From a virus: a stretch of DNA of 43,122 nt. The stretch is taken from positions 1-43,122 of IMG/VR virus record IMGVR_UViG_3300035193_000039; one strand, written 5' to 3'. Made by a program: the position numbers and the translations under genes. Shown in pieces: positions 6,444 through 36,697 of this stretch. Below the pieces are notes generated by a model. The model did no database searches and was not told the origin of the DNA. It saw only the letters and a list, made by a program, of their open reading frames with translations. Position 1 is the first letter of the stretch. Every line of letters starts with the position of its first letter.

Positions 6444-6445
6444 GA

Positions 6446-20511: not shown

Positions 20512-20689
20512 TTTCTTTTTCTGCTTCTACCATGTAAAATGGTGTGATGCGGCAAAATTTATTTTTTTGCTTGTTCGAATACATATCAAGGCGCAAATCC
20601 AACTGTTGGCGTATGACGTTTAGTTTTTCAACATCGTTGTTTTTGATGCATTTACTCATGTGCCTTATATATGCCTCGTCAAAATTCAT
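20495..20689 (-). CDS. Hypothetical protein (64 aa)
   Basis: Helical, soluble (MSKCIKNNDVEKLNVIRQQL). It overlaps the lipoprotein gene as ATGA. No domain recognised. Confidence 0.5.
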   Translation of the reverse strand: MNFDEAYIRHMSKCIKNNDVEKLNVIRQQLDLRLDMYSNKQKNKFCRITPFYMVEAEKENEDFI

Positions 20690-21087
20690 CTGTCAAAATT
20701 AAAATTAAGCTGCCCTTTTATCCATCCGTCCTTATTCCTTACCATGCAGTTCATAGAATCATCTACATAGAGCAACCGCATATAAGTAGAATCTGCCAAT
20801 GTTATTTCAGCTTCGGCCAAGCCGTTTTCGCTTCTAGCCCTGAAAGTAAAATCCGCAAAACTGTTTTCCCAATACGCGGTGTCAACATTTAGCTTCATAT
20901 CCAATATTACGGAAATCATCGCATTGAAATTGCTGTCAATCCTGACAATAGAATCTCTCAGGTTTTTGTTTTCTACCATCATCGAATCGCCCCAAGACTT
21001 TGAATAATACTCTAATGTGTCGGGCTGTCCGAAAAGCGAACATCCGTAAAACATTGTCAATATCGTTATGTAGGTCAGCTTTTTCAT
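20686..21087 (-). CDS. Lipoprotein in late operon (133 aa)
   Basis: A signal peptide with lipobox-like MFYGC (Cys about residue 16) predicts lipidation. The mature part has helical heptads (NLRDSIVRIDSNFNAMISVI) then strands. Position between adhesins and lysis genes fits an outer-membrane spanin or a virion/envelope lipoprotein. Neither is proven. Confidence 0.55.
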   Translation of the reverse strand: MKKLTYITILTMFYGCSLFGQPDTLEYYSKSWGDSMMVENKNLRDSIVRIDSNFNAMISVILDMKLNVDTAYWENSFADFTFRARSENGLAEAEITLADSTYMRLLYVDDSMNCMVRNKDGWIKGQLNFNFDR

Positions 21088-21863
21088 GGATTAGGTGAAT
21101 ATTTTTCGTTAAAATAACTGTGTACCTGTTCCAGTTCCCCTGTTGTCAATGCCCTGTCATATATGACAATCTCTGAACATTTGCCTATAAATACCTGTGT
21201 CCCGCCTCCAGAAACGGAACCGGCAAAAAAATAAAGATCATTACCTGAAAGTGTCGGGTCAATCGACTGCGGGTCTGAGTCTATTTCACTCCCGTTTTTA
21301 TAGCTCACTATGTTATTTCCATCGTACCATAACGTATTGATGAACCTCTCCCCTTCAGCCGGGTTGGGGTCGAACCTCTGGAACGCACCAGACCCTATCC
21401 TATTATAATATACGGACGTAAACCTGACCCAGTGGTATAGAATTTCATTGCTGCCTCCTGATTGCCTTATGCCAAACTGGTTTGCCGAAAATGTATCAAA
21501 TTCCCAATTTGCAGTTATAGTAAATTCTGTGAATGTTTCGGTTATATCGGTCAGAATATATACAACATCTCCATAACTGCGCATAGCTTTGGTTCCATTT
21601 ACATAATCAACAAGTTCCGCCAAATCTGTCTGCCCTATTGTCGGAAATGCATTTCTGTTATTGCCGCTTATATCCACAAGGGAATCTATCGTACCGTCCC
21701 CGAAATCCATGAGGTTCGCGTTGTAATACAGCCAATGGCCTGAAACCGGCACAGTGTCGGAAATCCCGGTACCTGTAAAATTAGTTATCAGAGGCCGCTT
21801 GATCACATTCCCTTGAAAAATGACCAATGAAGCCAATAATGATATGTATAAGTATTTTTTCAT
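21084..21863 (-). CDS. LamG/concanavalin-like lectin with signal peptide (259 aa)
   Basis: Start taken at the second ATG, which overlaps the upstream stop as TAATG. A hydrophobic signal segment (YLYISLLASLVIFQGN) is followed by a jelly-roll domain. Markers include FTITANWEFDTFSANQFGIR, strands with SGSGAF-like turns, and the ending VFIGKCSEIVIYDRALTTGE, typical of LamG/Laminin_G_3 repeats. It probably binds glycans on a cell surface or virion. Confidence 0.65.
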   Translation of the reverse strand: MKKYLYISLLASLVIFQGNVIKRPLITNFTGTGISDTVPVSGHWLYYNANLMDFGDGTIDSLVDISGNNRNAFPTIGQTDLAELVDYVNGTKAMRSYGDVVYILTDITETFTEFTITANWEFDTFSANQFGIRQSGGSNEILYHWVRFTSVYYNRIGSGAFQRFDPNPAEGERFINTLWYDGNNIVSYKNGSEIDSDPQSIDPTLSGNDLYFFAGSVSGGGTQVFIGKCSEIVIYDRALTTGELEQVHSYFNEKYSPNP

Positions 21864-22468
21864 TACCAATCGTCCCTATGTATGACTGCACCCAATCCTA
21901 TCTTTGTATTCATGTTTGGAACAGTGTTGTAACCGGTACAATTTGCATAACCGTTCCTTATCATTATAACATCACGCAATGTCAACAAAGATCCGTCCAC
22001 TTTGGCCGCAAGGACATAATATTGACCGTTTCCTGGCTGATAATACATCACATGATTTGAATTGAAATAATCTGCCCATGTCCTCTTAACTTCTGTATAT
22101 CTTCCATCAATTGTATAAGAATTAGCCCCCATTATTTCTGTATGAACTGTATCATCGAAAAATACAGAATCGTTAATAACTAGGTATAATGGCCAGTTAC
22201 TAGTATTTGCACCTGCTGCGTACATTTCGTTGATCTGAGAGTTTTCTGGCTCCCACTGGTCGGTTATCTTGAATATTGTACTTCCGTTTTCCGTGCCTGT
22301 AGCTATAAGGCCACCGCTCAACATCCAATTTGCAAATTCATGCCTCATATTTCCGTGTATAAAATCCGTGGTATCCTCCAACACAAGTGATGTCGGCACG
22401 GTCAAAGTCTGCGATTTTACAACAAAAACCGCCAAAAAAATCACTAATATAAAAACTGTCTTTTTCAT
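21863..22468 (-). CDS. Secreted adhesin-like protein (201 aa)
   Basis: Clear signal peptide (MKKTVFILVIFLAVFVVKSQ). The mature protein is beta-rich with several aromatic and Asp turns (INDSVFFDDTVHTEIMGANS). No family recognised. Located among tail-fibre genes and coupled to the lectin gene. Confidence 0.55.
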   Translation of the reverse strand: MKKTVFILVIFLAVFVVKSQTLTVPTSLVLEDTTDFIHGNMRHEFANWMLSGGLIATGTENGSTIFKITDQWEPENSQINEMYAAGANTSNWPLYLVINDSVFFDDTVHTEIMGANSYTIDGRYTEVKRTWADYFNSNHVMYYQPGNGQYYVLAAKVDGSLLTLRDVIMIRNGYANCTGYNTVPNMNTKIGLGAVIHRDDW

Positions 22469-22480
22469 TTTATTATAATT

Positions 22481-24835
22481 TTATGGTGTATCTATCCAAT
22501 AATATGTACTGTCATTAGCAAATTGCCTGAACTGGTAAAGGCTCACCGCATCCGCATCCGTTGACTGGTCGCCCGAATTGGTGGCCTTGCTTGCCCCGTC
22601 AACAGTCAACGTCCTCCCCCCTGTCCCGTCCTGATATACCTCTATCTCGTAGAAACCGCCCTTCGGGACTGTAATATCAAGGTCGGCATTGTTGGTCATG
22701 GTTATGACCTGTGTGGTTGCCTGTCCTTTGAAGTCGAATGTCATCGATACAGAAAAGCTGATAGTATCTACCCTTAACCTAATCCCTTCGTTCAGGTCTA
22801 CATTGTCGTTTACTTCCATGGTATCGTTCGTGCTGCCTTCTAAATTGTCTGTGTAGACGGTATTGAAATTGCTGTCTATTTCAGATATTTTTTGTTCAAC
22901 TGCATACATCGTAGGTAATTCGGTTCCCGAATAATTTGATTTTTCATTACTGTAATACAATGAACTGTCATTAAACCCAACATAATTGTTTTTTGAATAA
23001 TCCCCAAGTATTACTTCCTCGTCCTTCAATTCAAGGATTGTTGAAATTGACGGATTATAACCTATTTCAGTAATGTAAAATATTGATACAGATGGTTCAA
23101 TGTCAACCACGGTATCATTAAGGATAACCGAATCAGCCTGTATGCCGGTATGCCACAATATATTGTCGGTATACCTGTCGTTTATGGCAGATCCCCTTAA
23201 AGTCTGGACATCGTTATATGCAAAAATGGTATCATACCATACCATTGATTTTGTATCTTTATTAAAACCTATCATTAATGGCAATTCACTACTTCCATTA
23301 AAATCAATCGTTGTCGTTCCATAATTTACGGTATTTGAAAAAAGACCGTACATATAGACTATATTTTTATTATACACAATACCGCCCATAACTTGACCAG
23401 TATAGATATTTAAATCCCAATATGATGTGTCAAATTCTAAATTAGTCTTTATAACATAATTTGACCCTGCCGTAATCCCGGATTTGTTAACATCCGTAAA
23501 CTCAATTGATGTACCGTTGTTTGGCCCACCAAAATATAGATTCCCGTCTTCGTCTATATCAAAATAAGGTGTGTACAAATCATCCCCCCCTTTAACATAA
23601 TCAGAATTATTGATAAGATTTCCGTTATCCGGATTAATTTCAAACAATATTCCCCATCTATTGACCGGATCGCCAGTGAATGTAGTATCTGGAAATTCTA
23701 GGTAATCTTCAAAATCCCCTGCAACAAACAGCCTGTTATCGTAAAATTTAAAAGCATACAATCTATTGGAGTTGTCCCCTGACAATATTTGCCTTACATA
23801 AACTACATTACCGGATGTATCTATTTTACCATAAATTGGACAAGTAAACGAATTAGCGGTTATTGATGTATCTCCAACGGTAGACGTTCCCGTATGTATT
23901 CCGGTAAAAAATATATTACCATCAAGATCTACTTTTGCACTGTGCAAAAATTGTAACCCTGAACCGTACATTAATACCGTTGCCGAATCCTTAACGTTCA
24001 AATTTTCATCAAACTTCATGTATATAACATCCTGATTTGATGATGGCATTGCAATAGTATCATTATACCATCCATTTATATATACTGTAGATCCATTCGG
24101 GTCGGCTAATATGACGATATCTCCGTTCGGAAGTGGTGCGACAAATGAAAATTGATCGGAAGCGGTACTTCCAATCCTTAATACAGAATCATATATTTCT
24201 TCATTTGTACGTGTTATCCATATATCGAATGATCCAATACTATTTATTCCGGACAATGTGAATAATCCATATATAGAACTGAACAATCTATCGTTATAAT
24301 CCTGCGCAATAACTGACACAGTTGAATTCACTGAATTATCGGCATAAGTATATCCATATCTATTGGATGATTCTATAGATTCATTTTGGTATATTTCCCT
24401 TATTGTTTTTGAACCCAATTTCAATTCGCTTCCTGTAACCTCGTTCCATATAATTCCGTTATATATATATTCTTTTCCGTCAAAATTAACATAACCTTTT
24501 GATCCAATACCGACACCTGTCGGAAGATCTGAATAATAAGAAACCGTATAATATGAAATCAATGATTTAACATATTGTGTTGAGTCATTGATTGTTAAGT
24601 CTGTATAGTTTTTGGACGAATCGATTGCATGTTGGATGGAATCGCTTATCATATTGGGAATGGTGTCGTTGATCTCGTTGATCATTGCATCGGTCTTGTA
24701 CTTTATTTCGATTGCCGAATCCTCGAACTCCCAGTATCTTATATTTCCGTTATCATCATACACTGAATCTTGTGCATTATACTGTCCCGACAATATTATC
24801 GGAAAAAAACTCAATATATACAACAGTTTTTTCAT
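22481..24835 (-). CDS. Large tail fibre/adhesin with signal peptide and propeller-like repeats (784 aa)
   Basis: Start chosen at the ATG giving MKKLLYILSFFPIILSGQ, preceded by AGGAATTGAT; an upstream in-frame ATG overlaps the previous gene. After the signal peptide are coiled-coil and YNGIIWNEVTG-like fibre segments. Many repeats of about 45-50 residues follow with the pattern D.dgNlyfgG...tsi.f...., similar to SBBP-type beta-propeller repeats. The C-terminus (residues ~650-784) has a beta-sandwich with a tyrosine-rich end. Probable receptor-binding fibre. Confidence 0.65.
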   Translation of the reverse strand: MKKLLYILSFFPIILSGQYNAQDSVYDDNGNIRYWEFEDSAIEIKYKTDAMINEINDTIPNMISDSIQHAIDSSKNYTDLTINDSTQYVKSLISYYTVSYYSDLPTGVGIGSKGYVNFDGKEYIYNGIIWNEVTGSELKLGSKTIREIYQNESIESSNRYGYTYADNSVNSTVSVIAQDYNDRLFSSIYGLFTLSGINSIGSFDIWITRTNEEIYDSVLRIGSTASDQFSFVAPLPNGDIVILADPNGSTVYINGWYNDTIAMPSSNQDVIYMKFDENLNVKDSATVLMYGSGLQFLHSAKVDLDGNIFFTGIHTGTSTVGDTSITANSFTCPIYGKIDTSGNVVYVRQILSGDNSNRLYAFKFYDNRLFVAGDFEDYLEFPDTTFTGDPVNRWGILFEINPDNGNLINNSDYVKGGDDLYTPYFDIDEDGNLYFGGPNNGTSIEFTDVNKSGITAGSNYVIKTNLEFDTSYWDLNIYTGQVMGGIVYNKNIVYMYGLFSNTVNYGTTTIDFNGSSELPLMIGFNKDTKSMVWYDTIFAYNDVQTLRGSAINDRYTDNILWHTGIQADSVILNDTVVDIEPSVSIFYITEIGYNPSISTILELKDEEVILGDYSKNNYVGFNDSSLYYSNEKSNYSGTELPTMYAVEQKISEIDSNFNTVYTDNLEGSTNDTMEVNDNVDLNEGIRLRVDTISFSVSMTFDFKGQATTQVITMTNNADLDITVPKGGFYEIEVYQDGTGGRTLTVDGASKATNSGDQSTDADAVSLYQFRQFANDSTYYWIDTP

Positions 24836-24836
24836 A

Positions 24837-25052
24837 TCAATTCCTGTTAAATGTTTCGTCACGCACAAAAACACCGTCGTGCCTGAAGTAGCCGCCTTCA
24901 AAAAGCCATGTCTGCCCCGTTGCCGGGTCCGTTGCAAGCCTTGCCAAATCATAAACAAAATTATGGTTATATGTTATTGAGTATTCAAAATCACAGTCAT
25001 ACGTCAAATCATATATATAATCATGGTTATATGTGGTTGAATAACTAAACAT
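24837..25052 (-). CDS. Small Tyr/Asn-rich protein with internal repeat (71 aa)
   Basis: Two ~20-residue units, each ending YNHxYIYDL or YNHNFVYDL and spaced by EYSIT, give a very Tyr-rich N-terminus. The C-terminus (QTWLFEGGYFRHDGVFVRDE) looks like a small fibre tip. It overlaps the upstream gene by 8 bp. Probable small tail or fibre component. Confidence 0.5.
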   Translation of the reverse strand: MFSYSTTYNHDYIYDLTYDCDFEYSITYNHNFVYDLARLATDPATGQTWLFEGGYFRHDGVFVRDETFNRN

Positions 25053-25440
25053 TGCTTATCAGATTATAATCGGTATTGCTGATGATTATTTTATCAAAGG
25101 TGTCATCGGAAAAGTTCGTGTTTGTCCTTACGTACGTCCATTTTGCCTTTATCCTTCCTACCGCATTGTCCGTTGTTGTTGAACCGACAAGATAGACAAG
25201 GCAATAATCGCTGTCCTCGTCCGCTGTGTATTCCGGGTTTCCCGTATCTTCGTTATAAGCTACAGTGACAGGCACGATAGTGCTCCCACTTATCGAATAG
25301 CTCCCTATCTCGGTATCTGACGAATCGTACAAGGTCAATGAAACATTTGTCAGCCCCGATTCCGAAAACTTGAAAGTGCCGACTTCGTAAGGCATCCCTA
25401 TCAGCAATATTTCGTCCGACCCTTTTGTTATGTCCTTCAT
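25045..25440 (-). CDS. Beta-rich virion-type protein (131 aa)
   Basis: Strand-rich with SLTLYDSSDTEIGSYSISGS and repeated Thr/Ser. No signal peptide. Coupled to its neighbours by ATGA overlap. Probably a baseplate or fibre-associated protein; family not recognised. Confidence 0.5.
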   Translation of the reverse strand: MKDITKGSDEILLIGMPYEVGTFKFSESGLTNVSLTLYDSSDTEIGSYSISGSTIVPVTVAYNEDTGNPEYTADEDSDYCLVYLVGSTTTDNAVGRIKAKWTYVRTNTNFSDDTFDKIIISNTDYNLISNV

Positions 25441-25715
25441 TTTTTCCTGTATTTAATGAAATTCGGGAATATAGTTTTCTTGGCAACCAATGTGTCGCCT
25501 ACCTTAAACCTGTCCCTGGCATTGGTGATAACATAGGTTTCCCATTCGTTCGTGAAAAAATGGTTGCTTTTTTCAACATAATATATTGTATCGTTTTCTT
25601 CAAACTTAAAGCTTAACACTAATTCTTTCGGATAGTCTTGAGATTTATGTACGTAAATTTTCTCCGAACACCCGAAAATAAATATTATTGCCGCTATATA
25701 AATAATTTTTTTCAT
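25437..25715 (-). CDS. Small lipoprotein in tail-fibre operon (92 aa)
   Basis: From the ATG overlapping the fibre gene stop (TAATG), MKKIIYIAAIIFIFGCSEK is a lipoprotein signal with Cys at residue 16. The mature part is beta-rich. An in-frame ATG 12 nt upstream adds four residues. Likely outer-membrane or surface-exposed. Confidence 0.6.
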   Translation of the reverse strand: MKKIIYIAAIIFIFGCSEKIYVHKSQDYPKELVLSFKFEENDTIYYVEKSNHFFTNEWETYVITNARDRFKVGDTLVAKKTIFPNFIKYRKK

Positions 25716-28144
25716 TATTCGTCCCATTTTATGGCCCAGTCAATATTTATGACCGTGGCGTTGTTGCTCCCCGCTGTGTTCGTAATGACAGGTTTTATCC
25801 AGTCCCCTGAAGTAAATTGATATTCCATATACATTGTTGTCGATCCTATTCCGTTTGTCGTTGTTGTCCTTTGAAACTGGCCTTTGTTTTCCACTAATGT
25901 ACCATTCACGTAAAAACCCCCTTCAAATGATGAAGCAACAGCCGTTCCCTGGAAGTCAAGCCTCAGATCGGATATTCCCCATCCCGTAAAAGGGACTTGT
26001 ACGCTGTCGCCTTGCACAACAAATGTACCTTCGTTTCTCGAAACTGTCAGTAAACCTGGCCTTATAAATGTCGAATCCACGTTCTGTGTAATGATAACGG
26101 TATAAGAACTGTCCGCACAAGAAGCGAAGAATCGTGGGTTTCCTGTGTAAAGAAGACCTGTCGCTGTAGTAGTATCTGTTGCCTCATCTCCTAATGTGGT
26201 GTTGCCATCAACCGTAAGGTCGTTGCTTATGTTTACATTTCCCGCATAATCAACCGAAAACCTCCGTAATCCGTTGTTGTATACGGCAAAAATAGTGTCT
26301 CCCGATTGAAGTTCTTCATGTGTATCTAAGAAATAAGCCGTTCCGCCACTTGATGCGGATAGCCTCGGGTTCAGACTTATCCTTTCGGTGCTTCCGATTG
26401 TAGCTGTCAATACTTTTCCCGATATTGTGCCGCTTGTAGTTGGATTGTCTGTAATATCAATAATATTTCCGGTTATATCAACTGCCCCAGTATTTATCGT
26501 TTTATCAATTTCAAGTATATTTGTGGTATGTGTTGCCGATGAGTAAGTACCGTTCTGTACCAGATGCAATACACCCGGTCTTATACTTGTTAATGTTGCC
26601 GCATAATGAGATGAGTTAGGATACGGATTATAAACTGTTAACGGCTCCGTTCCTGAAATAGCCCCCCCTGTTGGAAATTGAAAATTTGCCTTTGTCGCAT
26701 AAAAATGACCGTCATAATTCAATCTATCCGTATTGGTTGGATTTGTAATGCCTGTATAAAAATACCCTGCCGTCTTTGTCGAACCGCTCGTCTTTATTAC
26801 ATCTGTCGAAAAATCACCCTTAATATCCAGCAATCCGTTTACCCAATTGATACTGTCTTCCCCTTTTATCTTGTCGGATTGCGTAAATACGGCCAATTGG
26901 TTGGCCGAAGGCGTGCCGGCAGTATCCGCTTCACCGCCACCGCCTATATCGCCGCTCTCAAACCATGTGTCGCCGACTTTTATGGAGTCTTCCGCCTCTA
27001 CCGTTTTGCCCACCAATGTATCGGGGGCATATACTTTCCCGCTTGCGTATATCTCCAATGCGTTGCTCTGTGCATCTGCCGCCGTCCCGTTGCCTACCGT
27101 GAATATCCTGTTGGTCGGAACGATTGACGTCTGTGTACCTGTAGACGGTTCGTTGAAATGCCCAAATACGGCTTCCGAAAAATCATGTGCAACTGTAGAA
27201 TCACCGGATGCAAAAGAATGCGACCCGGACGCCGTATTTCTCCTACCCCCGGGAACGGTTGAATATTCACCGCTTGCCGTATTGTAACCACCTCCGTTTA
27301 CCGTCGAAAATATGGCAGACGCAGTGTTGTACGCCCCGCCTTTTACCCCGCTATAAAAATTTGACAAACTGTTGTTCAACCCTATATTTACCCGCCGCCA
27401 AGTATCGTTCCAAGTAAAACGTGCATTGCCGGCAATTGACCCGGAACTGTTAAAAAGTACCGCCATATCCGTAAGCCCGCTAAGGTCGGGGGCGGATGTT
27501 GCCAGATCCAAAAGGGAATAGCTCTGGCCTGTCTCTCCGTCGGCAAAATACAGTGAACTCCCCGTCCCCCATATTTTTATGTCAGAGGCATCAGAATTGA
27601 ACCTAATGGTGCTGTCTACCCTTATGCCTGTCGGGACGGTATAGAACCTAGGCGATCCGTTATAGTACATTGTATGTTTTGCGCCCGTTATCAAAAATGC
27701 GTCCTCACCTTCAAAGGTAAACAGCATGCCCTCCTCGCCCCCCTTGTGGTCAAAAGTGGTATAATCTGCATCTATCGTAAGCTCCATCGTATCTGTTTCC
27801 CCTAGATTGGAAAATATGTAAGGTGACCCGCCAGCCAGGCTTCCGTAACCTGTTACACTAAGCACATCGCCCGCTATGCTAAGCCCCGTACCCGTATTTA
27901 TATCTAAATTACCGCTGGCATCCTGTACAAGCCCGTCACCCGCTACCAGGGGGTTCAGGTGTTCGCCTTTGACCGTATTTGGGACAAGCAGGTTATATAG
28001 CTGTACCTTTTCGTTCCTTGTCCCGTCGTAAGATATGACTATATCTGCGCTGTCGGGGTCTGTTTCTTCAGGGAACTCATCGAACTTCCTTTGTCCGTAT
28101 GTGCTTACGGTGATAAATGACAATATAAATAAATATTTTTTCAT
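25715..28144 (-). CDS. Tail fibre with signal peptide and YadA-like head repeats (809 aa)
   Basis: MKKYLFILSFITVSTYGQ is a signal peptide, directly followed by an anchor-like segment (SYDGTRNEKVQLYNLL). Residues ~260-330 repeat GGxYNTASGxxSTVxGG, the left-handed beta-roll of trimeric YadA-type heads. Long collagen-like beta regions follow, and the C-terminus (FYVNGTLVENKGQFQRTTTT) looks like a C1q-like trimer knob. It is a probable receptor-binding fibre. The start codon is well fixed because no other ATG lies nearby. Confidence 0.75.
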   Translation of the reverse strand: MKKYLFILSFITVSTYGQRKFDEFPEETDPDSADIVISYDGTRNEKVQLYNLLVPNTVKGEHLNPLVAGDGLVQDASGNLDINTGTGLSIAGDVLSVTGYGSLAGGSPYIFSNLGETDTMELTIDADYTTFDHKGGEEGMLFTFEGEDAFLITGAKHTMYYNGSPRFYTVPTGIRVDSTIRFNSDASDIKIWGTGSSLYFADGETGQSYSLLDLATSAPDLSGLTDMAVLFNSSGSIAGNARFTWNDTWRRVNIGLNNSLSNFYSGVKGGAYNTASAIFSTVNGGGYNTASGEYSTVPGGRRNTASGSHSFASGDSTVAHDFSEAVFGHFNEPSTGTQTSIVPTNRIFTVGNGTAADAQSNALEIYASGKVYAPDTLVGKTVEAEDSIKVGDTWFESGDIGGGGEADTAGTPSANQLAVFTQSDKIKGEDSINWVNGLLDIKGDFSTDVIKTSGSTKTAGYFYTGITNPTNTDRLNYDGHFYATKANFQFPTGGAISGTEPLTVYNPYPNSSHYAATLTSIRPGVLHLVQNGTYSSATHTTNILEIDKTINTGAVDITGNIIDITDNPTTSGTISGKVLTATIGSTERISLNPRLSASSGGTAYFLDTHEELQSGDTIFAVYNNGLRRFSVDYAGNVNISNDLTVDGNTTLGDEATDTTTATGLLYTGNPRFFASCADSSYTVIITQNVDSTFIRPGLLTVSRNEGTFVVQGDSVQVPFTGWGISDLRLDFQGTAVASSFEGGFYVNGTLVENKGQFQRTTTTNGIGSTTMYMEYQFTSGDWIKPVITNTAGSNNATVINIDWAIKWDE

Positions 28145-28156
28145 ATCGTAAAGTTA

Positions 28157-30232
28157 TTAAAATTTGACAATAATCGGGTCCCCGTTTTGATCTAAAGTAT
28201 ATTCTTTTTCTTCATCAGCCAGATAATCCTGTATGTCAGAGGCATCGGATTTCAGTTCCATTAACTCGCAGCTCATTATACACGACTTGAGGCTATAAGC
28301 CGTATTCAACGGTAAAAAAAGCCTGTTTTCGTCCTTGGAATCTTGATATACATCTATCATTTTAAACCCGGAACCCATAAGTTCCCCGCTCAAAATATGT
28401 GTCGGCGTCGAATATTGATAAAGAAGGTCATGCATCATCACTTCTTGAATTGTCGCGTTGATGTCTAAAGAATTGTAATCCCAATTGTTTGTTTTTATAT
28501 ATTCGCTTCCCGATTTTCTGTAAAAAAAATTTTCGACCATCACATCGCCAGCCCATTTTTTGCTCGTAAAATTGTCTTCGGTGTTGTCGCCGTAATATAT
28601 CTCTTTTTCGTAGTCTTCCCCCCTGGCGTTCCTGTTATATTCCGTCAAAGCCAAATTATCCGGGTAAGTTTCGAACTCGCCGGATTCGTCGTTGTAGTAT
28701 TCCGCTTCAAACCTTACGCTGTGGACGACAAGTTTCATCGCCGTATTGGAATGCTCGTAAGAAGATCCGTCTTCGAGGAAAAAATACGGCTGTACCGAAT
28801 ATTCAAGTTCCTCTATCCCGGAAAGCGGCCCGACTATAAATTCTATGACCTTTTCGCCATAATCGTCGCTTGCCGTAATATACTCCGTAAAGATCGGCTG
28901 TTTTATGGCTATGTTGTTCCTCATTATGCCGTCGGTATATTGAAACCTGTTTGCTATGTTTGCAGCTTCCGGGTTGCCTGTTATATATTCGATCATCGAT
29001 ATTTTATAATCTGTCTTGTCCACGCCCTCTTCTACTTCATCGTCATCTAGATCGAACCTATATTTTGTTATCACTTTTATTTTTATTGGCCTGTATGCCG
29101 CCCTTTCGTCGTTGAATATGGCCACCGGGTCGCTCTGTATCCTCGTTCCGTTTTCTATCACTATTGGATAATTTACCTTCCCGTTGACCGTGTATGGGTC
29201 GTCAAACTTATATATCCGCCTTGTCGTGCTCCCGCCTACCTTTGACCAGCCTTCCGGTATATCGGATACATACCCTCCGAAATCGATCGTGTTGAAATCG
29301 GTAAAATAATAATTTTCAAATATGGAATACCTCAATTTCGTGTTCAATTTTACGCTTATCTCCCGTGAAGGTGGTTTTATATAAAGGGATGCATTGTTGT
29401 TGATCCAATCTTTGCGGTTTTCCCTGCTTACCCCGTTCCCTGTCATGGAAAGCCTAAGGTTCGTTGTCGTAAGCGAAACATAGTCGCCGTTGGAATCATA
29501 AACCAAAGTCCTTATGTCCGTCCCTTTCATTTCCGGTACCCTTATCAGCCACCAGTTTCCGTCATAGTAATTGACCTGTATCAAGAACGGTTCAAGAAGT
29601 CTTATGACGGCATCAAGGCATGATATCGGCTCGTTGTCTTCCCATAGCGTCCTTGAATCTATATAGGTTTGCGCCAATGGCGATTCATCGGTTACATGGT
29701 TCGATTCGTACAGGTTACAGACCGTGTATATGGAATAACTGTCTTTTTTTAGTTTTAACAGGGCTGCCGCAAATACTTTGATAATACTCACATAACCATC
29801 GAAATATTCCCCGCCCTGATCCGTAATGGGGATATTTTTCAATATATGGAAACCCTCATACCCTTCATGGGTTATGTTTATCGGGTCTTGTTTGTAAGGT
29901 TGCGAAAAGTCCAACGGATCGAGGTATGTATCAACGATACCGTTTTCCCCGTCCGATGATATAAGGAACCTGTCATAATCGTTTGAGTCCCTTATTTCTT
30001 CATAACCTTCGCTGCCGTCCGTCTGTAATGTTATTTCATGTGAAAAAAGTTTCAGCGGTTCAAAAATATCCTGCCTGTGAACTATCGTGTTCAATATTAC
30101 AGGGTCGGCGCCCATTATGACATCTTGCGGCGTAGGGTCAGTCCTCCTCAGGTCTTCCTTTAGGTCAAAATACCAGTCGTTGCCCAAAATGTCTTTTTGG
30201 CCGTGCATCCTGTATATCGATTTGTACGCCAT
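28157..30232 (-). CDS. Tail-tip/baseplate protein (691 aa)
   Basis: Follows the tape measure directly, sharing a stop/start base, where the distal tail and hub proteins are encoded in siphophages. It opens with a tail-type beta domain (DWYFDLKEDLRR, ITLQTDGSEGYEE) and has a long mixed alpha/beta body without an enzymatic motif. It probably combines distal-tail and hub roles and anchors the fibres. Family assignment by position. Confidence 0.6.
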   Translation of the reverse strand: MAYKSIYRMHGQKDILGNDWYFDLKEDLRRTDPTPQDVIMGADPVILNTIVHRQDIFEPLKLFSHEITLQTDGSEGYEEIRDSNDYDRFLISSDGENGIVDTYLDPLDFSQPYKQDPINITHEGYEGFHILKNIPITDQGGEYFDGYVSIIKVFAAALLKLKKDSYSIYTVCNLYESNHVTDESPLAQTYIDSRTLWEDNEPISCLDAVIRLLEPFLIQVNYYDGNWWLIRVPEMKGTDIRTLVYDSNGDYVSLTTTNLRLSMTGNGVSRENRKDWINNNASLYIKPPSREISVKLNTKLRYSIFENYYFTDFNTIDFGGYVSDIPEGWSKVGGSTTRRIYKFDDPYTVNGKVNYPIVIENGTRIQSDPVAIFNDERAAYRPIKIKVITKYRFDLDDDEVEEGVDKTDYKISMIEYITGNPEAANIANRFQYTDGIMRNNIAIKQPIFTEYITASDDYGEKVIEFIVGPLSGIEELEYSVQPYFFLEDGSSYEHSNTAMKLVVHSVRFEAEYYNDESGEFETYPDNLALTEYNRNARGEDYEKEIYYGDNTEDNFTSKKWAGDVMVENFFYRKSGSEYIKTNNWDYNSLDINATIQEVMMHDLLYQYSTPTHILSGELMGSGFKMIDVYQDSKDENRLFLPLNTAYSLKSCIMSCELMELKSDASDIQDYLADEEKEYTLDQNGDPIIVKF

Positions 30233-32139
30233 TATATCCTTGTGTTTATGCCCCTGCTGGACAATTTGTCACTCGCCCTTGTTACGCTTAGATATAGGTC
30301 GCTGCCCCTCAGTACGAACGAGCCGACAGATGTCCCATTGCTGTCCATAAGTTTCTTTAAGGTAGATTGCTTTAACATAAACTCGGGGTTTGTCTGTGCG
30401 TTAGGATAGTCGCCTACCATTGCCATTGTCGGCCTGTTTACGCTTCCCTCGCTTGCGAACGATGGGATTATACTGTTCAATAAAGTCCCTGCTGCCGCTC
30501 CTGCCGCTGCCGCTATTATAAGGTTGAAAGGCGGTGGAGTGCTTGCCAGGGCATTTTTTACCGTTGCTGCGATACTTTCCGCTACATATGCCTTTATTGT
30601 CGATCTTACGGCAGAAAGAACATTATTTTTAAAACTTTCCGCACTGTCAGAGGCTTGGGAAAAACTGTTTATAAATGTATCTGAAATCTTTTGCGTAGCA
30701 TCCGACATTTCTTCCGTTTTTTCGATCGCCCCATCTATCCTTTTGGCATGATTGTCGTAGAATTTATTTATCGAATTGGTGAATTGATTATCATATTTAT
30801 CCGTGATCTCGTCTATATATTCATCATAATAATCCATAGACTTTTCAAGGTCTTTTTCAAAACCTTCTGTCTGTGACTTTGTTTTTGGGGTGAATTCTAA
30901 ATCTTTTAATTCCCCGAGCCCCATTAACTCTTCCAATTTACCTTCTTTTGATTTTAATTTAACCTGTAGACTGATTATATTTTCCCTGCTTGTTGCCGTA
31001 TCGATTTGCTCTTTTAATGATTTTATTTCATTTTTTAGATTTTCTATTATTCCTATTTTTTTTTCTTGTTCTTTGTTTTCTTTTTTTGTAAGCTCAGTCA
31101 AATCCGCCGTCCCGTCGTTCACATCATTCAATACGGAAAGGTATTCGTTCATTGCGTTGTTGGTAGTTATTATCTGCTTATAATCTTTGTTCATGATATT
31201 CCAAAGATCGACGCCCCTATCAAGAAAATCTTTATACCTATTTATTGCCCTTTTATGTGTATTATAAAATTCTTGCGTTGCCTCGGTCTGTCTTTTTATT
31301 TCCCCCTCAATTGCCAGTTTTCTTGCTTCACCGTTAAGGTCTTTTATCGATCTTGCAAAATTACCGACCATCCCGTCAACCATACCGCTGAAATTGTCGT
31401 CAAAAGAATAAGATACAGAATCGAGAAGGTTTGTTAAGGCAACCTTCACCTTATCAATAATAGGTATCCCAGCATTACCTATATACGCAAGGAAATTTTC
31501 CCATGAGGCTTTTAATGCTTCCGTTTTTTCTTTTGACGTAGTGGCTTGATCGCCCATTTTCTCTAGTTCCCGATCTGCTATTTCTCCGACTATCTTTGTA
31601 ACGTCCCCGATCGATGCTGCTTCTATCCCGACCCCTTTTAATTTTTTCCTTAATTCTATTGCAGAAATCCCCAAATTATCGAGTATAAGCGGTGATTTTC
31701 GGCCAATCCCCAAAACGATCGAGTTCACTAAATATTCAACTGATTCCCCGGTCTGTAAAGCCCTTTTGTGTGCAAATTCCAGCAGTTTCCCCATTTCCGT
31801 AAGCGGTATCCTGAAATTATCTGCCCTGACCGCCGCTTTCATTAATTCAAGATCGGAAACAGTCCCGCGGGTAGCTTGCCTGAGATTGCTGAGAAGCCCT
31901 GGCGCATTAAGGTTGTCAAATGCATTTTTTACCCCCTGCATCTCCCCCGCAAGCCTGGCCGCTTCTTTTCCGAACCCCACAATTTTGGAAACTGTAAAAG
32001 CCCCGGCGACAATTTTACCTATATCTTTTATGGTAGATGAAAACCCCATCGTATGCCTTTCGGCATCCTTAAAGCCCCTTTTCAGTTTGTCCGACCTTAC
32101 CCCGAGGTCTACGAATAATTTATGTATAATATTATTCAT
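30232..32139 (-). CDS. Tail tape-measure protein (635 aa)
   Basis: Typical features: an N-terminal helical region with FKDIGKIV-like segments (STIKDIGKIVAGAFTVSKIV), a long helical middle rich in K/E, and a hydrophobic stretch near 540-560 (PPPFNLIIAAAAGAAAGTLL). It sets tail length and may aid DNA entry; at about 0.15 nm per residue the tail would be near 95 nm. No lytic domain. It follows the chaperone frameshift product by an 8-bp overlap. Confidence 0.85.
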   Translation of the reverse strand: MNNIIHKLFVDLGVRSDKLKRGFKDAERHTMGFSSTIKDIGKIVAGAFTVSKIVGFGKEAARLAGEMQGVKNAFDNLNAPGLLSNLRQATRGTVSDLELMKAAVRADNFRIPLTEMGKLLEFAHKRALQTGESVEYLVNSIVLGIGRKSPLILDNLGISAIELRKKLKGVGIEAASIGDVTKIVGEIADRELEKMGDQATTSKEKTEALKASWENFLAYIGNAGIPIIDKVKVALTNLLDSVSYSFDDNFSGMVDGMVGNFARSIKDLNGEARKLAIEGEIKRQTEATQEFYNTHKRAINRYKDFLDRGVDLWNIMNKDYKQIITTNNAMNEYLSVLNDVNDGTADLTELTKKENKEQEKKIGIIENLKNEIKSLKEQIDTATSRENIISLQVKLKSKEGKLEELMGLGELKDLEFTPKTKSQTEGFEKDLEKSMDYYDEYIDEITDKYDNQFTNSINKFYDNHAKRIDGAIEKTEEMSDATQKISDTFINSFSQASDSAESFKNNVLSAVRSTIKAYVAESIAATVKNALASTPPPFNLIIAAAAGAAAGTLLNSIIPSFASEGSVNRPTMAMVGDYPNAQTNPEFMLKQSTLKKLMDSNGTSVGSFVLRGSDLYLSVTRASDKLSSRGINTRI

Positions 32140-32434
32140 TCAGTCCAAGTTTGTCCGCTATTCCCAATTTTATCAACCTGTTCTTTATTTCTTCGCCTGT
32201 CATCGCCTTTACGCCTTCAAGATGTTTCCAATCGCCGGGGAGCTTGAATATCTTTTTCGGGTTTTCCCTTAATATAGCCCCCAATAAATCCCTATGCTCC
32301 CGTAACCTTGTTATCCTGTCTATCTGATAACCCTTGCTTATGGCCGCATATTCGCCCATTGACATCCTTTCGAAGTCCCGAGGGTTCAACTTAAGGACGC
32401 CCACGGCAAAATCTTTTATTTCCCTGTGCCCGAC
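32132..32434 (-). CDS. Tail chaperone extension (GpT-like), reached by -1 frameshift
   Basis: The -1 frame is open from the slippery site (A AAA AAG, 32440-32434) to 32132. It adds 100 residues to the first 119 of the upstream chaperone, a 219-residue fusion. The extension is helical (FERMSMGEYAAISKGYQIDR). This is the lambda G/GT logic, where the fused protein bridges tape measure and major tail protein. A GTG at 32404 could start it independently but has no strong ribosome-binding site. Confidence 0.8.
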   Translation of the reverse strand, partial: VGHREIKDFAVGVLKLNPRDFERMSMGEYAAISKGYQIDRITRLREHRDLLGAILRENPKKIFKLPGDWKHLEGVKAMTGEEIKNRLIKLGIADKLGLNE

Positions 32435-32790
32435 TTTTTTTTTTGCCCTTCAGCCTGATCCATCAGGTCTTCCAATGTATCGCCGCCTATCCTGCTTTTC
32501 TTCATTGCCGCCACAACTTTATTCCAGTCTTCCGTGTAGCTCCTGTCTATCCATTTTTGGACTTCCCTTTCATTGAAGTTTACGCGCTTGCCCTTACTTT
32601 TATTGTAACTTACGGCAGCGCAATAAATCATCTTCCTCATAAACTTATCATCACCTAACACATCAAATTCATCGAACGCCAACTGGGTGTACTCCGAAAA
32701 AAAGCACCAGCAATACATATCAAAAGAAAACCCCTGCCACCTTCGGCCTATTGCCTTCCTTGGGACTTTTATTTCCGTTACAAAATCCAT
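32416..32790 (-). CDS. Tail assembly chaperone (GpG-like, 124 aa)
   Basis: Start at the ATG overlapping the major tail gene's stop (TAATG); an upstream in-frame ATG is inside that gene. Helical, acidic/basic mix (FDMYCWCFFSEYTQLAFDEF), ending KKKSGTGK. Location between major tail and tape measure is diagnostic. It ends normally or shifts -1 at its 3' end. Confidence 0.8.
   Translation of the reverse strand: MDFVTEIKVPRKAIGRRWQGFSFDMYCWCFFSEYTQLAFDEFDVLGDDKFMRKMIYCAAVSYNKSKGKRVNFNEREVQKWIDRSYTEDWNKVVAAMKKSRIGGDTLEDLMDQAEGQKKKSGTGK
32434..32444 (-). promoter_or_regulatory. -1 ribosomal frameshift site (A AAA AAG)
   Basis: A run of ten A followed by G sits in the zero frame so that its last heptamer reads A AAA AAG, the strongest -1 slippery sequence in bacteria. 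A short GGCA/TGCC pairing downstream may help. The -1 frame joins the GpT-like frame exactly. Confidence 0.85.
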
Positions 32791-33206
32791 TATATCAATG
32801 TTGTTGCGGATGTTCCGTAAGTTTTGCTTCCCGTCCTCCTGATGTTCAATGTCCAAGTTATTGAACCGTTCTCGGGGTCGCTCCTGCTCAAGCCCGTGAT
32901 GATGCCGCTAAAACTTGTTATCTCCCCGCCAGCAATATCAATCCCACGGCCATATACTACCGCCACAGCGGCCTTTGCTTCTGCTGCTGCTTCTAAGTCG
33001 GAATATCCGTAAGTTGCGGATTCGTTCAACCTTCCTTCAACGGTTACGGTCCCAGAACCTTCGCCGGCCTGAAATTCTTTGTCCCCGTCGCTGTCTTTTG
33101 TTGTCTGTTCGATCTCGTCAAATGTGTTGTCCATTGTCTGAGAAGTCGTGCCGTTTAATAAATTCCCCGCTATCGAAATAAACGAGGTGCTTCCATCGTG
33201 TCCCAT
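32790..33206 (-). CDS. Major tail (tube) protein, TP901-1-like (138 aa)
   Basis: Typical tail-tube sequence: opening GSTSFISIAGNLLNGTTSQT, the EIEQTTKDSDGDKEFQAGEG block, GSGTVTVEGRL, and SGIITGLSRSDPENGSITWT at the end. Small single-domain beta-sandwich that stacks into the tail tube. Gene position before the chaperone supports it. Confidence 0.85.
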   Translation of the reverse strand: MGHDGSTSFISIAGNLLNGTTSQTMDNTFDEIEQTTKDSDGDKEFQAGEGSGTVTVEGRLNESATYGYSDLEAAAEAKAAVAVVYGRGIDIAGGEITSFSGIITGLSRSDPENGSITWTLNIRRTGSKTYGTSATTLI

Positions 33207-33209
33207 AAT

Positions 33210-34088
33210 TTATTTGATTAAATGGTTAATATCCTGTTTTTTATTTTTTAAAATATAATTCCTTACTTTCATTATTTCGGGTGCCTTCATGATCAGGTTG
33301 TTCCTTACTACCTGGTAATATTCGTTGTCTTTAAATTTATGTAAAGTATTGCACGCCTTTTCCCAATCAAGGAATATAAATGCGCTAACTATCATGTTCC
33401 AGTAATATGCCCCCATATCCTGTATATAAGGTTTTTCATCACCTTTTTTATAATAAATATTGCTTATCGTCACGTCCTTTGCGATTTTCACCTTGCCCCC
33501 CAATGCCCAGACCTTTAAGCTTAAATAAGAGCAAAGCCCTCCATATCCTTCAAGAAGCTCAAACCCTTTGATATACCCGTACAAACTTTTTGGCATGAAA
33601 TAATTTGCGCCCAATACACATGGGATTTCGTATACTTTGTTTTTTTGTTGTTTTTTCCATTTAGGGACCAAGCATTCATATTTACCGTCATTTTCATGGT
33701 CCATTATTATGTCTGCCCCGTACCTGTAACCTTCCTCTTTTTCTTCACCGAACCTCAATATCCCTGATTTAGTACAAAATAGGGTATTTTTGTTTTCCCG
33801 TAAATGGGCTATCATTTTAGAAGCCCAATTCTTTGTCGGGAACCTCATCCTCGCGTTGAAAATTGCTATATACCTATATTTAGCTTTTTTTACGCCTAAA
33901 TTTATCGATTGATGTACCCCTTTCGGCCTTTCGTTCCTGATTACGGTAGCCCCTTCTATTTTAAAAGGCTTGTCGCTGAAGTCGTCTATCACTATTATTT
34001 CATTATCCACGTCACATGTCGCATATATAGCCTCACATGTTTCATATATCCCTTTTTCGTTCTTTGACGGTATTATTATACTTATCAT
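33210..34088 (-). CDS. Family 2-type glycosyltransferase (292 aa)
   Basis: Starting at the ATG that overlaps the upstream stop (ATGA), MISIIIPSKNEKGIYETCEA and NEIIVIDDFSDKP (DD at 35-36) define a GT-A fold. RPKGVHQSINLGVKKAKYRY and IFNARM (77-81) follow, where the usual DxD is N-x-R, so metal use may differ. LLEGYGGLCSYLSLKVWALG is the acceptor-side region. It sits inside the tail operon, between completion and tube genes, which suggests it decorates a virion protein or a host surface glycan. Confidence 0.75.
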   Translation of the reverse strand: MISIIIPSKNEKGIYETCEAIYATCDVDNEIIVIDDFSDKPFKIEGATVIRNERPKGVHQSINLGVKKAKYRYIAIFNARMRFPTKNWASKMIAHLRENKNTLFCTKSGILRFGEEKEEGYRYGADIIMDHENDGKYECLVPKWKKQQKNKVYEIPCVLGANYFMPKSLYGYIKGFELLEGYGGLCSYLSLKVWALGGKVKIAKDVTISNIYYKKGDEKPYIQDMGAYYWNMIVSAFIFLDWEKACNTLHKFKDNEYYQVVRNNLIMKAPEIMKVRNYILKNKKQDINHLIK

Positions 34089-34522
34089 TTTCTTTTTATT
34101 TGAAATGTGTAAGTTATCCTTTTCTCCCTCCTTATATGGTCTTCGTCCTGGTAGCTTTCGTCGGTCTCGAAGGCGGACACATAAGGGGTGACGGTAAATT
34201 CGTAATTTGTCATTGTCAGGTATTGTTTGCACATAATTACGTTGATGTCGCTTGTTATGTCGCTAAGTTCCTGTTCCGTGCTTGACCCGTCTTGTGTAAT
34301 CCTTTGCCTCACCGCTGTTATGGTGATCTCCCCGTCCGCCTCGAAATCGTCTTTTGTCGAATTGTCGCTAAAAGAAGGGTATCCTATTTCAACGAAATAA
34401 TCAGGCTCCATGCGGTGAAGCCCTATAAATACCTGGTATCCCCTGCCGCTCGTATACGAAGCGTTTCCGGTCAATGCCGTTTTTATCGCTTGGGTCAGTT
34501 CATATGTCGGGTCGTACCTCAT
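34085..34522 (-). CDS. Tail completion/terminator-like protein (145 aa)
   Basis: I start at MRYDPTYELT, ATGA-coupled to the upstream gene. Position and size match the tail terminator (gp11/DUF3168-like) of HK97-type phages, with helix ELTQAIKTAL and a strand-rich body (YEFTVTPYVSAFETDESYQD). Family by context. Confidence 0.65.
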   Translation of the reverse strand: MRYDPTYELTQAIKTALTGNASYTSGRGYQVFIGLHRMEPDYFVEIGYPSFSDNSTKDDFEADGEITITAVRQRITQDGSSTEQELSDITSDINVIMCKQYLTMTNYEFTVTPYVSAFETDESYQDEDHIRREKRITYTFQIKRK

Positions 34523-35019
34523 AACAGTTTTCTTATATTGTCCAGGTATTTTTTGCTTATCTTCCTTACAGGCCAATAAAAAAATGGCTTTGGCTCCGTC
34601 CCGGGGTGCCTTACCTCCTTGCCGAAAACCGTGAATTGGTTGCCTTTGTAGGTAAATGTGTTGTTCCCTTTCGGGGGGCTGTATTCGCTCAATGTGAACA
34701 ATGTGTTATATCTTTTCGCCCTTATCGCGTGCGGACGTGTGCCGAACTCGAAAAATCCCGCTGCCTTATGGGCGTTCTCTATCGAGGCCATGGCTTTTGC
34801 ATAGTTTATATTGACTTTGTTGGCAGCTATCATGGCCGAATAATTCCTCCCTTCCCTTGCAGAATGTTTCTTAAGGCTCATCTTCTGCATTTTATCGACT
34901 TCATAAGCGGTTTTTACAATTTCTTTCCTTATGGCTTTCTGTTTCTCTACAGGAAATTTCCTGAACTTTGCCAGTGCCTTTTGAAGTTCGCTATTTGATA
35001 TGGATACATCTACAGCCAT
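34519..35019 (-). CDS. HK97 gp10-like head-tail/tail-completion protein (166 aa)
   Basis: KFPVEKQKAIRKEIVKTAYE and FFEFGTRPHAIRAK are typical of HK97 gp10/minor-capsid-like proteins, as is the closing VRHPGTEPKPFFYWP. It joins the head completion to the tail. Overlaps both neighbours by 4-10 bp. Confidence 0.75.
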   Translation of the reverse strand: MAVDVSISNSELQKALAKFRKFPVEKQKAIRKEIVKTAYEVDKMQKMSLKKHSAREGRNYSAMIAANKVNINYAKAMASIENAHKAAGFFEFGTRPHAIRAKRYNTLFTLSEYSPPKGNNTFTYKGNQFTVFGKEVRHPGTEPKPFFYWPVRKISKKYLDNIRKLL

Positions 35020-35576
35020 CCCTTATCTGTTATGTTCGACAACATGTCTTTTACCTGGTCGTTAAGTATAGGTATATAGTTAAATTTATTTTTATACCAT
35101 TCCGCAACCAGTTTCAATACAGCCTGTTTTGCAACCGGGTCTACCGTGTCGCTCCCTATATTGGCAGTCACTTTCCACGCTATTATCTCCACGTATGTCC
35201 CTGTAGAAATTGACGTGGGGATATATATTTTCTTCCTTTTCAATCCCCTCAAATAATAAGTGCTTCCGTCTTCTAGTTCGGTTTCGTTTCCTTCCTTGTC
35301 TATTGCCAAAACCTCGCTCAATGTATTTACGGGCGAAAATGGAAATATCAACGTCTTTTCGTCTTCGTCATAATCACAATCCTTTTCAAAATAAAAAACA
35401 ACGTCCCTTTTACTGAAATATGTCTCCGTATAATTCTCGCAAAGACCCTGCGCCGCTTCTATCATGTTATGAAGTGCGTTCAATGTATCTGTATGGTTGT
35501 CGTCATAATTGACATGGTTCTTAGCCTCGTCAATCGTGACTATTTTTTGGTACGGTGTCTTTATTTTTACTTCCAT
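35010..35576 (-). CDS. Head-tail connector, gp6-like (188 aa)
   Basis: KIVTIDEAKNHVNYDDNHTD and then AAQGLCENYTETYFSKRDVV match phage connector proteins of the gp6/DUF3199 type. The helical C-terminus (AKQAVLKLVAEWYKNKFNYI) is also typical. It forms the ring below the portal. Confidence 0.8.
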   Translation of the reverse strand: MEVKIKTPYQKIVTIDEAKNHVNYDDNHTDTLNALHNMIEAAQGLCENYTETYFSKRDVVFYFEKDCDYDEDEKTLIFPFSPVNTLSEVLAIDKEGNETELEDGSTYYLRGLKRKKIYIPTSISTGTYVEIIAWKVTANIGSDTVDPVAKQAVLKLVAEWYKNKFNYIPILNDQVKDMLSNITDKGWL

Positions 35577-36019
35577 TACTTATAAAATGATGCTTCCATT
35601 TTTTGTATTTCAACAACCAGTTCGTCACTTTCTCCAATGACATAAAGCCTCAGCCACTTTATTATTTTTGCCGTCCCCGTTTCCGTCAAATGAAAAACAG
35701 TGTCGGCAGTTCCCGCATAGCTTACCGTGTCATACGGTGTGTAACTGTCGCTTTCGTTGTTTTTGCCCTGTACGATAAACAAGTATTCGTTGTCCGACGA
35801 GCTCGTCCCTCCCGTGGAATCCACATCAAAAAATATATCATACTTTAAAGGGTCGCCATGCGATGGAAAATATAGTTCTTTATACCATATCGAATCCCCG
35901 TTGCCGAGCGTGTCCGATTCTATACCGTCATAATTATATACCCATTCGTTGCCCGAAAGTGTTTCGTGCTGCGAATAGCATATCAAAGGGAAAAACAACA
36001 ATATCAATAACTTTTTCAT
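35576..36019 (-). CDS. Second secreted-looking post-capsid protein (147 aa)
   Basis: MKKLLILLFFPLICYSQ is a signal peptide with Bacteroidota-type end. The mature protein shares an order of features with the 36251-36697 product: SDTLGNGDSIWYKELYFPS, EYLFIVQGKNN, then a D-T repeat and a final strand pair. The two look like paralogues. A decoration-like or surface role is possible; see findings. Confidence 0.6.
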   Translation of the reverse strand: MKKLLILLFFPLICYSQHETLSGNEWVYNYDGIESDTLGNGDSIWYKELYFPSHGDPLKYDIFFDVDSTGGTSSSDNEYLFIVQGKNNESDSYTPYDTVSYAGTADTVFHLTETGTAKIIKWLRLYVIGESDELVVEIQKMEASFYK

Positions 36020-36213
36020 TTTTTTTTCGGTTTTGATTTAACTCCCTTCGTTTCCGAATTGTTTTTAAGCTCTTTCGTTTCAGTATCTTTTTTCAATTCC
36101 TTGTATTTCTTTGCCCTTCCCGCTTTTATCAATATTTTAGATACCGCTTCGGCCACTTCTTTTACCGTTCCTTTATTGTGGCCGTTAATGTATTCGATTT
36201 TTACACGTTTCAT
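36016..36213 (-). CDS. Small basic protein after capsid (65 aa)
   Basis: I start at MKRVKIEYINGHNKGTVKEV; upstream in-frame ATGs overlap the preceding gene. The N-terminal half resembles the short LysM-like/Mu gp35-type proteins found after capsid genes, and the tail is K/E-rich (SETKGVKSKPKKK). Coupled by ATGA with the next gene. Role unknown. Confidence 0.55.
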   Translation of the reverse strand: MKRVKIEYINGHNKGTVKEVAEAVSKILIKAGRAKKYKELKKDTETKELKNNSETKGVKSKPKKK

Positions 36214-36250
36214 ATTGTTTATTTTAAGGGAGGGTTGCCCCTCCCGTTGA

Positions 36251-36697
36251 TCAGTCATCTTCGTTCTTTCCAACCGCACGGAACCTGAGATAATTTGTAT
36301 CCCATTTTCCCGTGGTTGAAACATTAACAATTACCTGTAAGTATCTCCACATCACACCTGTTGAAAGGTCTTCAATATATACGGTACCGTCTGCCGTCTG
36401 AGCTTCAACGCCGTCCGTTCCTGCAAGTGTATCAATCTCAAACCAGTCAGATCCGTTCAGGCTTCCCTGTAAAATAGCTATCCCGCTGGCCGATCCCGAA
36501 ACTTCATCAAGTTCAACCTCTACCCGATATAGGTAAATATCGTTCCTTGGGACGTACCACATTATAGAGTCGTCATCCGCATTCGTCGCCGTGTCTGCGG
36601 CCGTACCTGTGTACTCGTAGTAAACTTTTGAACTGAAATCCTGTGGATGTGCGGCCAATGCTGCAAAAGCCAACACTAAAATAAATATATACTTCAT
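36251..36697 (-). CDS. Secreted-looking protein following major capsid (148 aa)
   Basis: A strong AAAGGAGAAAGAA ribosome-binding site fixes the start, giving MKYIFILVLAFAALAAHPQ, a signal peptide. The mature part is a beta-sandwich-like domain (DDSIMWYVPRNDIYLYRVEV, QGSLNGSDWFEIDTLAGTDG) with paired strands to the end. In other HK97 phages a decoration protein is encoded here, but those lack signal peptides. Confidence 0.65.
   Translation of the reverse strand: MKYIFILVLAFAALAAHPQDFSSKVYYEYTGTAADTATNADDDSIMWYVPRNDIYLYRVEVELDEVSGSASGIAILQGSLNGSDWFEIDTLAGTDGVEAQTADGTVYIEDLSTGVMWRYLQVIVNVSTTGKWDTNYLRFRAVGKNEDD

Follow-up and report, generated by a model that had tools for sequence, protein, structure and literature searches.

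Predicted Sec Signal Peptides on Fibre-like and Capsid-Adjacent Proteins of a Tailed Phage with a Probable Bacteroidota Host

Late Gene Organization and Signal-Bearing Proteins

The virus record IMGVR_UViG_3300035193_000039 of the IMG/VR database, analysed here over its full length of 43,122 bases (the window), encodes in its late region eight proteins with predicted Sec signal peptides or lipoboxes, including nearly all candidate receptor-binding proteins of the tail. The late module is located on the minus strand and is of the siphophage type. It is represented by genes of the large terminase, portal, MuF-like protein, prohead protease, capsid protein, adaptor, neck protein and tail terminator, followed by genes of a glycosyltransferase, the major tail protein, tape measure protein, tail-tip-like protein, a fibre-like block and lysis genes. 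The nearest relatives of the terminase belong to phages of Bacteroides, Flavobacterium, Polaribacter and Cellulophaga, a relationship that makes a host from Bacteroidota very probable. The gene of the major capsid protein of the HK97 type (36712..38043), which anchors the head module, and the gene of the tail-tip-like protein (28157..30232), which forms the upstream border of the fibre block, encode proteins without signal peptides.

The Q-rule of Bacteroidetes describes cleavage by signal peptidase I just before glutamine (PMC5837995, PMC10653852). The initial annotation had placed six Sec signal peptides and two lipoboxes in the late operon, and all eight reading frames were found at the coordinates given for them. 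Five of the signal peptides are clear and follow the Q-rule, while the sixth (21084..21863) is plausible and lacks the glutamine; the lipobox of 25437..25715 is clear, and that of 20686..21087 is ambiguous. All eight genes lie on the minus strand; cleavage sites are marked below by an arrow, and O-glycosylation motifs are of the form D[ST][AILVMT].

Two small beta-rich proteins are encoded in the head module. SP_A (36251..36697, 148 amino acids, three motifs), whose gene is directly downstream of the capsid gene, has the N-terminus MKYIFILVLAFAALAAHP↓Q with the Q-rule site AHP↓Q, and SP_B (35576..36019, 147 amino acids, five motifs), encoded between the capsid and adaptor genes, has the N-terminus MKKLLILLFFPLICYS↓Q with the site CYS↓Q. 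Similarity between the two proteins is weak (hhalign probability 62%).

The distal block, comprising 25715..28144, 22481..24835, 21863..22468, 21084..21863 and their neighbours, is situated between the tail-tip and lysis genes. The main fibre candidate (25715..28144, 809 amino acids, 12 motifs; MKKYLFILSFITVSTYG↓Q, site TYG↓Q) contains at residues 255-393 a YadA/UspA1-like beta-roll of the kind known from trimeric autotransporter adhesins; apart from this roll and the LamG-like match described below, no fibre domain or family was matched in the block. The gene at 25437..25715 encodes a lipoprotein of 92 amino acids with two motifs and the lipobox IFG↓C (N-terminus MKKIIYIAAIIFIFG↓C); its weak matches to lysis and lipoprotein profiles cover the N-terminus only. 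A second fibre-like protein of 784 amino acids with 15 motifs (22481..24835) begins with MKKLLYILSFFPIILSG↓Q (LSG↓Q), and a protein of 201 amino acids with three motifs (21863..22468) begins with MKKTVFILVIFLAVFVVKS↓Q (VKS↓Q). The protein of 259 amino acids encoded at 21084..21863 (two motifs) has a LamG/ConA-like C-terminal part, the LamG-like match falling below the cut-off, and the N-terminus MKKYLYISLLASLVIFQG↓N, which represents a probable, weaker signal peptide without glutamine (FQG↓N). The protein of 133 amino acids at 20686..21087 (six motifs), with the N-terminus MKKLTYITILTMFYGCSLFGQPD, may be read either as having a lipobox FYG↓C or as having a Q-rule signal peptide LFG↓Q; because its gene adjoins the lysis genes, it is possibly an outer spanin.

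Two signal-bearing proteins are also encoded in the early region on the minus strand: a predicted secreted protein of 108 amino acids with a Q-rule signal peptide SSFS↓Q and three motifs (5833-6159) and a lipoprotein of 75 amino acids with LTG↓C and two motifs (1585-1812).

Signal Peptide Prediction

Signal peptides were scored with a rule-based scanner. Three N-termini missed by the scanner, those of 21863..22468 (called as transmembrane-like), 21084..21863 and 20686..21087, were read by eye. The chance rate of the scanner amounted to seven Q-type and one lipobox matches per 34,000 shuffled N-termini of the non-signal late genes, and no matches were obtained for 103 windows starting at internal methionines. 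As a control, Lom, a known exported protein, was the sole match among 23 late genes of phage lambda, and none was found among 21 late genes of HK97.

Each of the five Q-rule N-termini begins with a segment containing lysine, continues with 13-14 uncharged hydrophobic residues and has a small residue ahead of the glutamine. Glutamine at position +1 is present in five of the six signal peptides of the window, 21084..21863 being the one that does not fit. The uncharged runs comprise 13-17 residues, which is short for a stable transmembrane anchor. The C-terminal sorting domain of the type IX secretion system was absent from all eight proteins in an NCBIfam scan.

The translation starts had been described as well fixed. 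This holds for position 36697, which is preceded by a strong Shine-Dalgarno-like AAGGAG, but not in the same sense for the other seven, which lack a Shine-Dalgarno-like sequence and rest on the M-K-K beginning, on abutting genes and, for three genes, on conservation in a relative.

Conservation of the Signals in Related Phages

The only close relative, the IMG/VR contig L004, has the same gene order and a capsid protein with 76% identity. A survey of the same genes in related phages had been proposed as a check on the signals; in L004 the signal peptide and its glutamine are kept in all three testable proteins, with the sites IASA↓Q, SSYC↓Q and FCFS↓Q at syntenic positions. The syntenic orthologue of SP_A (6216-6662, IASA↓Q) is 69% identical overall, the signal peptides sharing 24% and the mature parts 75% identity. 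The orthologue of SP_B (6881-7336, about 48-49% identity) also retains its signal peptide, and the counterpart of the main fibre candidate (14977-) keeps both the signal peptide FCFS↓Q and the mature N-terminus. Since the signal and its glutamine persist in L004 in spite of such divergence of the SP_A signal peptide relative to the mature part, the window signal peptides are under selection as signals.

No relatives in public phage genomes were found for SP_A, for the N-terminal part of 25715..28144, or for 22481..24835 and 21084..21863. In IMG/VR, L004 was the only contig with a relative of SP_A or of the capsid protein, and no bacterial genome contig was matched by the capsid and tape measure queries. 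Searches of solved structures were negative, save for UspA1 with the fibre candidate. A fibre N-terminal motif shared with other phages was also considered, and a small hidden Markov model gave it no support.

Signal-bearing genes were observed in several other contigs. In L022, a different phage contig, a Q-rule protein of 152 amino acids with four O-glycosylation motifs (2495-2953) adjoins the portal gene. Flavobacterium phage FCL-2 (L031) encodes near its genome end a protein of 147 amino acids with the Q-rule signal TYS↓QVGIATTTPTETLDVNGT (45363-45806). Bacteroides phage BS-TP3 (L010) encodes a thioredoxin-domain protein with a Q-rule signal peptide (24585-25733) and a large signal-bearing protein that begins like a TonB receptor (25763-28966), both possibly host-derived.

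Signal-Bearing Proteins Annotated as Virion Components in Cellulophaga Phages

Fibre and lyase genes with Q-rule signal peptides, annotated as virion proteins from tandem mass spectrometry (MS/MS), were found in the Cellulophaga phages phi10:1 and phi19:1 (Assiduviridae) and phi18:3 (Pachyviridae). In phi10:1, the products of genes 91-94, which follow the tail-tip genes, have Q-rule signal peptides and each carry in GenBank the note ‘annotation based on experimental MS/MS proteomics analysis’. Gp101-103 of phi19:1 and gp85-87 of phi18:3, likewise with Q-rule signal peptides, as well as gp104 of phi19:1, whose signal peptide lacks the glutamine (SFG↓K), are structural according to the same type of annotation. 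MS/MS annotation covers every signal-bearing gene of the distal block in phi18:3 and phi19:1 and four of five in phi10:1. Similar genes are present in Nekkels, Ingeline and phi13:2, whose records, as read, have no MS/MS notes.

In phi10:1 and phi19:1, as in the window, the signal-bearing genes are located downstream of the tail-tip genes, where they account for five of seven and four of six genes, respectively, compared with six of seven in the window. Because every tail needs a receptor-binding protein, that of the window phage is probably among these six. The fibres of the Cellulophaga phages differ from those of the window in having no detectable sequence homology to them and in being poor in O-glycosylation motifs, in which the window proteins are rich; in the stretch of phi10:1 that was read, none of its signal-bearing genes was seen beside the capsid gene.

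The codons of the lyase signal peptide show one to seven synonymous and no nonsynonymous changes in every pair of phages. Only residues 1-118 of the lyase are shared in phi18:3 (83% identity) and only residues 1-132 in Nekkels (95.5% identity), the rest being unmatched. The signal peptide and N-terminal segment thus appear from these alignments to form a conserved anchor module with swapped receptor-binding C-terminal parts, a pattern typical of tailspikes. The occurrence of such signal-bearing proteins is conserved and wider than the window.

O-Glycosylation Motifs

In members of Bacteroidota, O-glycosylation of the motif D[ST][AILVMT] is restricted to non-cytoplasmic proteins (PMC12871550). 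The eight signal-bearing proteins contain 48 such sites versus 13.6 expected from residue shuffles (3.5-fold, z 9.8), whereas 17 other late genes contain 11 versus 14.7 expected and show no enrichment (odds ratio of the contrast 8.6). Control motifs, namely, reversed, Glu-substituted and D[ST] followed by other residues, were at or below expectation in the signal-bearing proteins. In L004, 12 sites versus 3.4 expected were counted in the signal-bearing proteins and 13 versus 9.2 in the others. The two early-region genes, flagged by the scanner without reference to the motif, have two sites versus 0.16 expected (1585-1812) and three versus 0.21 (5833-6159). Since the motif excess is confined to signal-bearing proteins, their composition resembles that of host periplasmic proteins.

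Conservation of individual sites varies between proteins. All five sites of SP_B are motifs in both phages, changes in the third residue staying within the allowed class, while two of three sites are kept in SP_A and two of 12 in the fibre candidate, several of the latter lying beyond the sequenced part of L004. Taken together, the three proteins show no clearly significant excess of site conservation (Asp, p=0.04; Ser/Thr, p=0.22).

A gene of family-2 glycosyltransferase (33210..34088, minus strand) is located between the tail terminator and major tail protein genes and is kept in L004 (8847-9737); it is possibly related to virion glycosylation. Glycosyltransferase-like genes, judged by eye, were also seen inside or beside the structural modules of tape measure relatives (L020 5931-7112, L021 5814-6704, L022 674-1648), and phi18:1 has a glycosyltransferase-like gene as well, gp41 (L033 4506-5729).

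Discussion

The initial annotation regarded signal peptides on such proteins as unexpected and offered several meanings, from surface display and free secreted adhesins to envelope steps of assembly and membrane anchoring. The signals are real and their presence is indeed unexpected. Among the meanings, the one in which the proteins are exported, cleaved and then carried on the particle is favoured by the Q-rule sites, by the signal-bearing proteins of Cellulophaga phages annotated as virion components, and by the glycosylation motif enriched only in signal-bearing proteins. The use of the signal as a membrane anchor is disfavoured by the short hydrophobic cores and the conserved glutamine. 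Free secretion or surface display is possible for some of the eight proteins.

The signal-bearing proteins of the window are very likely exported, and the distal fibres are likely to be members of the virion. The presence of host-type export signals on nearly all candidate receptor-binding proteins and on the two capsid-adjacent proteins suggests that the particle is partly completed outside the cytoplasm. On balance, by a narrow preference, we favour Sec export and trimming with probable O-glycosylation, at least the distal fibres joining the particle after export and probably around lysis. In the late phase, the eight proteins would be exported by way of the Sec translocon of the host; signal peptidase I would cut the Q-rule proteins before glutamine, which host glutaminyl cyclase would cap as pyroglutamate, and signal peptidase II would process the lipoprotein or lipoproteins. 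In the periplasm, the general O-glycosylation system of Bacteroidota would probably modify the D[ST][AILVMT] sites. Having no signal peptides, heads and tail tubes would be assembled in the cytoplasm as usual, and the exported proteins 25715..28144, 22481..24835, 21863..22468 and 21084..21863, almost all of the candidate receptor-binding proteins, would attach to the particle outside it. The simplest timing would be that holin and endolysin open the cell and that the fibres attach as virions traverse the periplasm. For the window proteins, we infer cleavage, pyroglutamate formation, glycosylation, periplasmic attachment and virion membership from these features taken together.

SP_A and SP_B may decorate the capsid by the same route, a guess from their position and predicted beta-rich structure that we put forward tentatively, at somewhat less than an even chance. 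The most complete version, in which receptor-binding fibres and capsid decoration proteins are all exported by Sec, capped with pyroglutamate, O-glycosylated by the host and joined to virions no earlier than their passage through the periplasm at lysis, is rather doubtful.

Several observations weigh against export followed by attachment. Two podoviruses, phi17:2 and the Crassvirales member phi14:2, have the same lyase domain in virion proteins that lack a signal peptide, and phi18:1 and phi17:1, phages of the same host genus, have virion fibres without signal peptides; export is therefore not a general need of fibres, and the signal follows phage lineage and assembly route rather than domain or host. 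The MS/MS annotations, which give no N-termini, are compatible with co-purified secreted proteins, and the proteomic evidence comes from Cellulophaga phages. The AlphaFold models of SP_A and SP_B are poor (mean confidence, pLDDT, of 50 and 53), and a periplasmic fibre would have to find the tail tip in time. Finally, 13 partly related signal-bearing virion proteins of Cellulophaga phages (L009, L011, L013, L015 and L018) are motif-poor, with 18 sites versus 38.6 expected. This rules out glycosylation as the general reason for signal peptides on phage fibres; it is rather a lineage-specific consequence or use of export. The deficit itself perhaps reflects avoidance of host O-glycosylation.

The strongest alternative, itself unlikely, is that only the distal fibres are exported virion proteins, while SP_A, SP_B and the lipoproteins belong to the host envelope during infection, with roles such as superinfection exclusion, receptor masking or that of a spanin, and are merely placed in the structural operon. 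The MS/MS-supported proteins of the Cellulophaga phages all fall within the distal tail block, 20686..21087 adjoins the lysis genes, 25437..25715 has its N-terminal lysis and lipoprotein matches, and lambda Lom is a signal-bearing product of a tail operon that is not part of the virion. Against this division, SP_A and SP_B are kept between the capsid and adaptor genes in L004 at the identities given above, and L022 has its small Q-rule protein beside the portal gene.

Lom also serves as a precedent for a broader alternative, that the whole set of eight is exported without being part of the virion (as free adhesins, for surface display or as depolymerase-like factors) and that the Cellulophaga MS/MS matches represent co-purification. 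The YadA/UspA1-like roll occurs in bacterial adhesins too, and Q-rule genes of Porphyromonas gingivalis phages were interpreted as host-modifying (PMC10367356). This alternative seems improbable: it leaves few candidates without signal peptides for the receptor-binding protein that each tail requires, the distal-block genes are MS/MS-positive in the proportions reported above, and the combination of a conserved anchor and exchanged C-terminal domains is characteristic of tailspikes. A further alternative, in which the hydrophobic N-termini escape cleavage and tether the proteins to the membrane or are functionless remnants of host adhesin genes, the proteins acting in the cytoplasm, is very improbable given the conserved glutamine at +1, the 13-17 residue cores, the lack of nonsynonymous changes in the lyase signal peptide and the periplasm-type motif enrichment, even if beta-rich trimeric fibres may, as a general consideration, fold before Sec engages and homologous lyase domains work on virions without signal peptides.

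Known systems resemble the one favoured here, export followed by attachment, only in part. Lambda Lom and similar morons share the encoding of a Sec-exported product within the tail operon and show that a signal-bearing gene in this position can be a moron; Lom differs in being a host outer-membrane protein, whereas in the window the signals are on the fibre block itself and virion evidence exists in relatives. The coat proteins pIII and pVIII of filamentous phages are virion proteins with cleavable Sec signal peptides; these coats are assembled in the inner membrane during extrusion, without a pre-built capsid or tail, in an unrelated virus type. P. gingivalis phages of the proposed family Nixviridae also have genes with Q-rule signal peptides, reported from prophages without an assigned function and proposed to encode modifiers of the host envelope; they differ in that the passages found propose no role in virion fibres or decoration (PMC10367356). 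The general O-glycoproteins of Bacteroidota are similar in the enrichment of D[ST][AILVMT] in exported proteins only; the review describing them has no mention of phages (PMC12871550), and glycosylation of the window proteins is predicted from their motifs.

In the open literature searched, with subscription journals largely outside the search, no paper describing signal peptides on the virion fibres of tailed phages was found, nor one commenting on those of the Cellulophaga phages. In the textbook view, the assembly of tailed phages is a cytoplasmic process. If many fibres of Bacteroidota phages are Sec substrates, their receptor-binding proteins would have to be attached later than assembly in the cytoplasm or away from it, virion maturation would come to include host export and glycosylation, and fibres produced recombinantly with no signal peptide may be mis-processed. 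For annotation of these Bacteroidota phages, a Q-rule signal peptide downstream of the tail-tip gene would indicate a likely receptor-binding protein. If completion outside the cytoplasm is true, intracellular particles would lack receptor-binding proteins, and released particles would carry host glycans.

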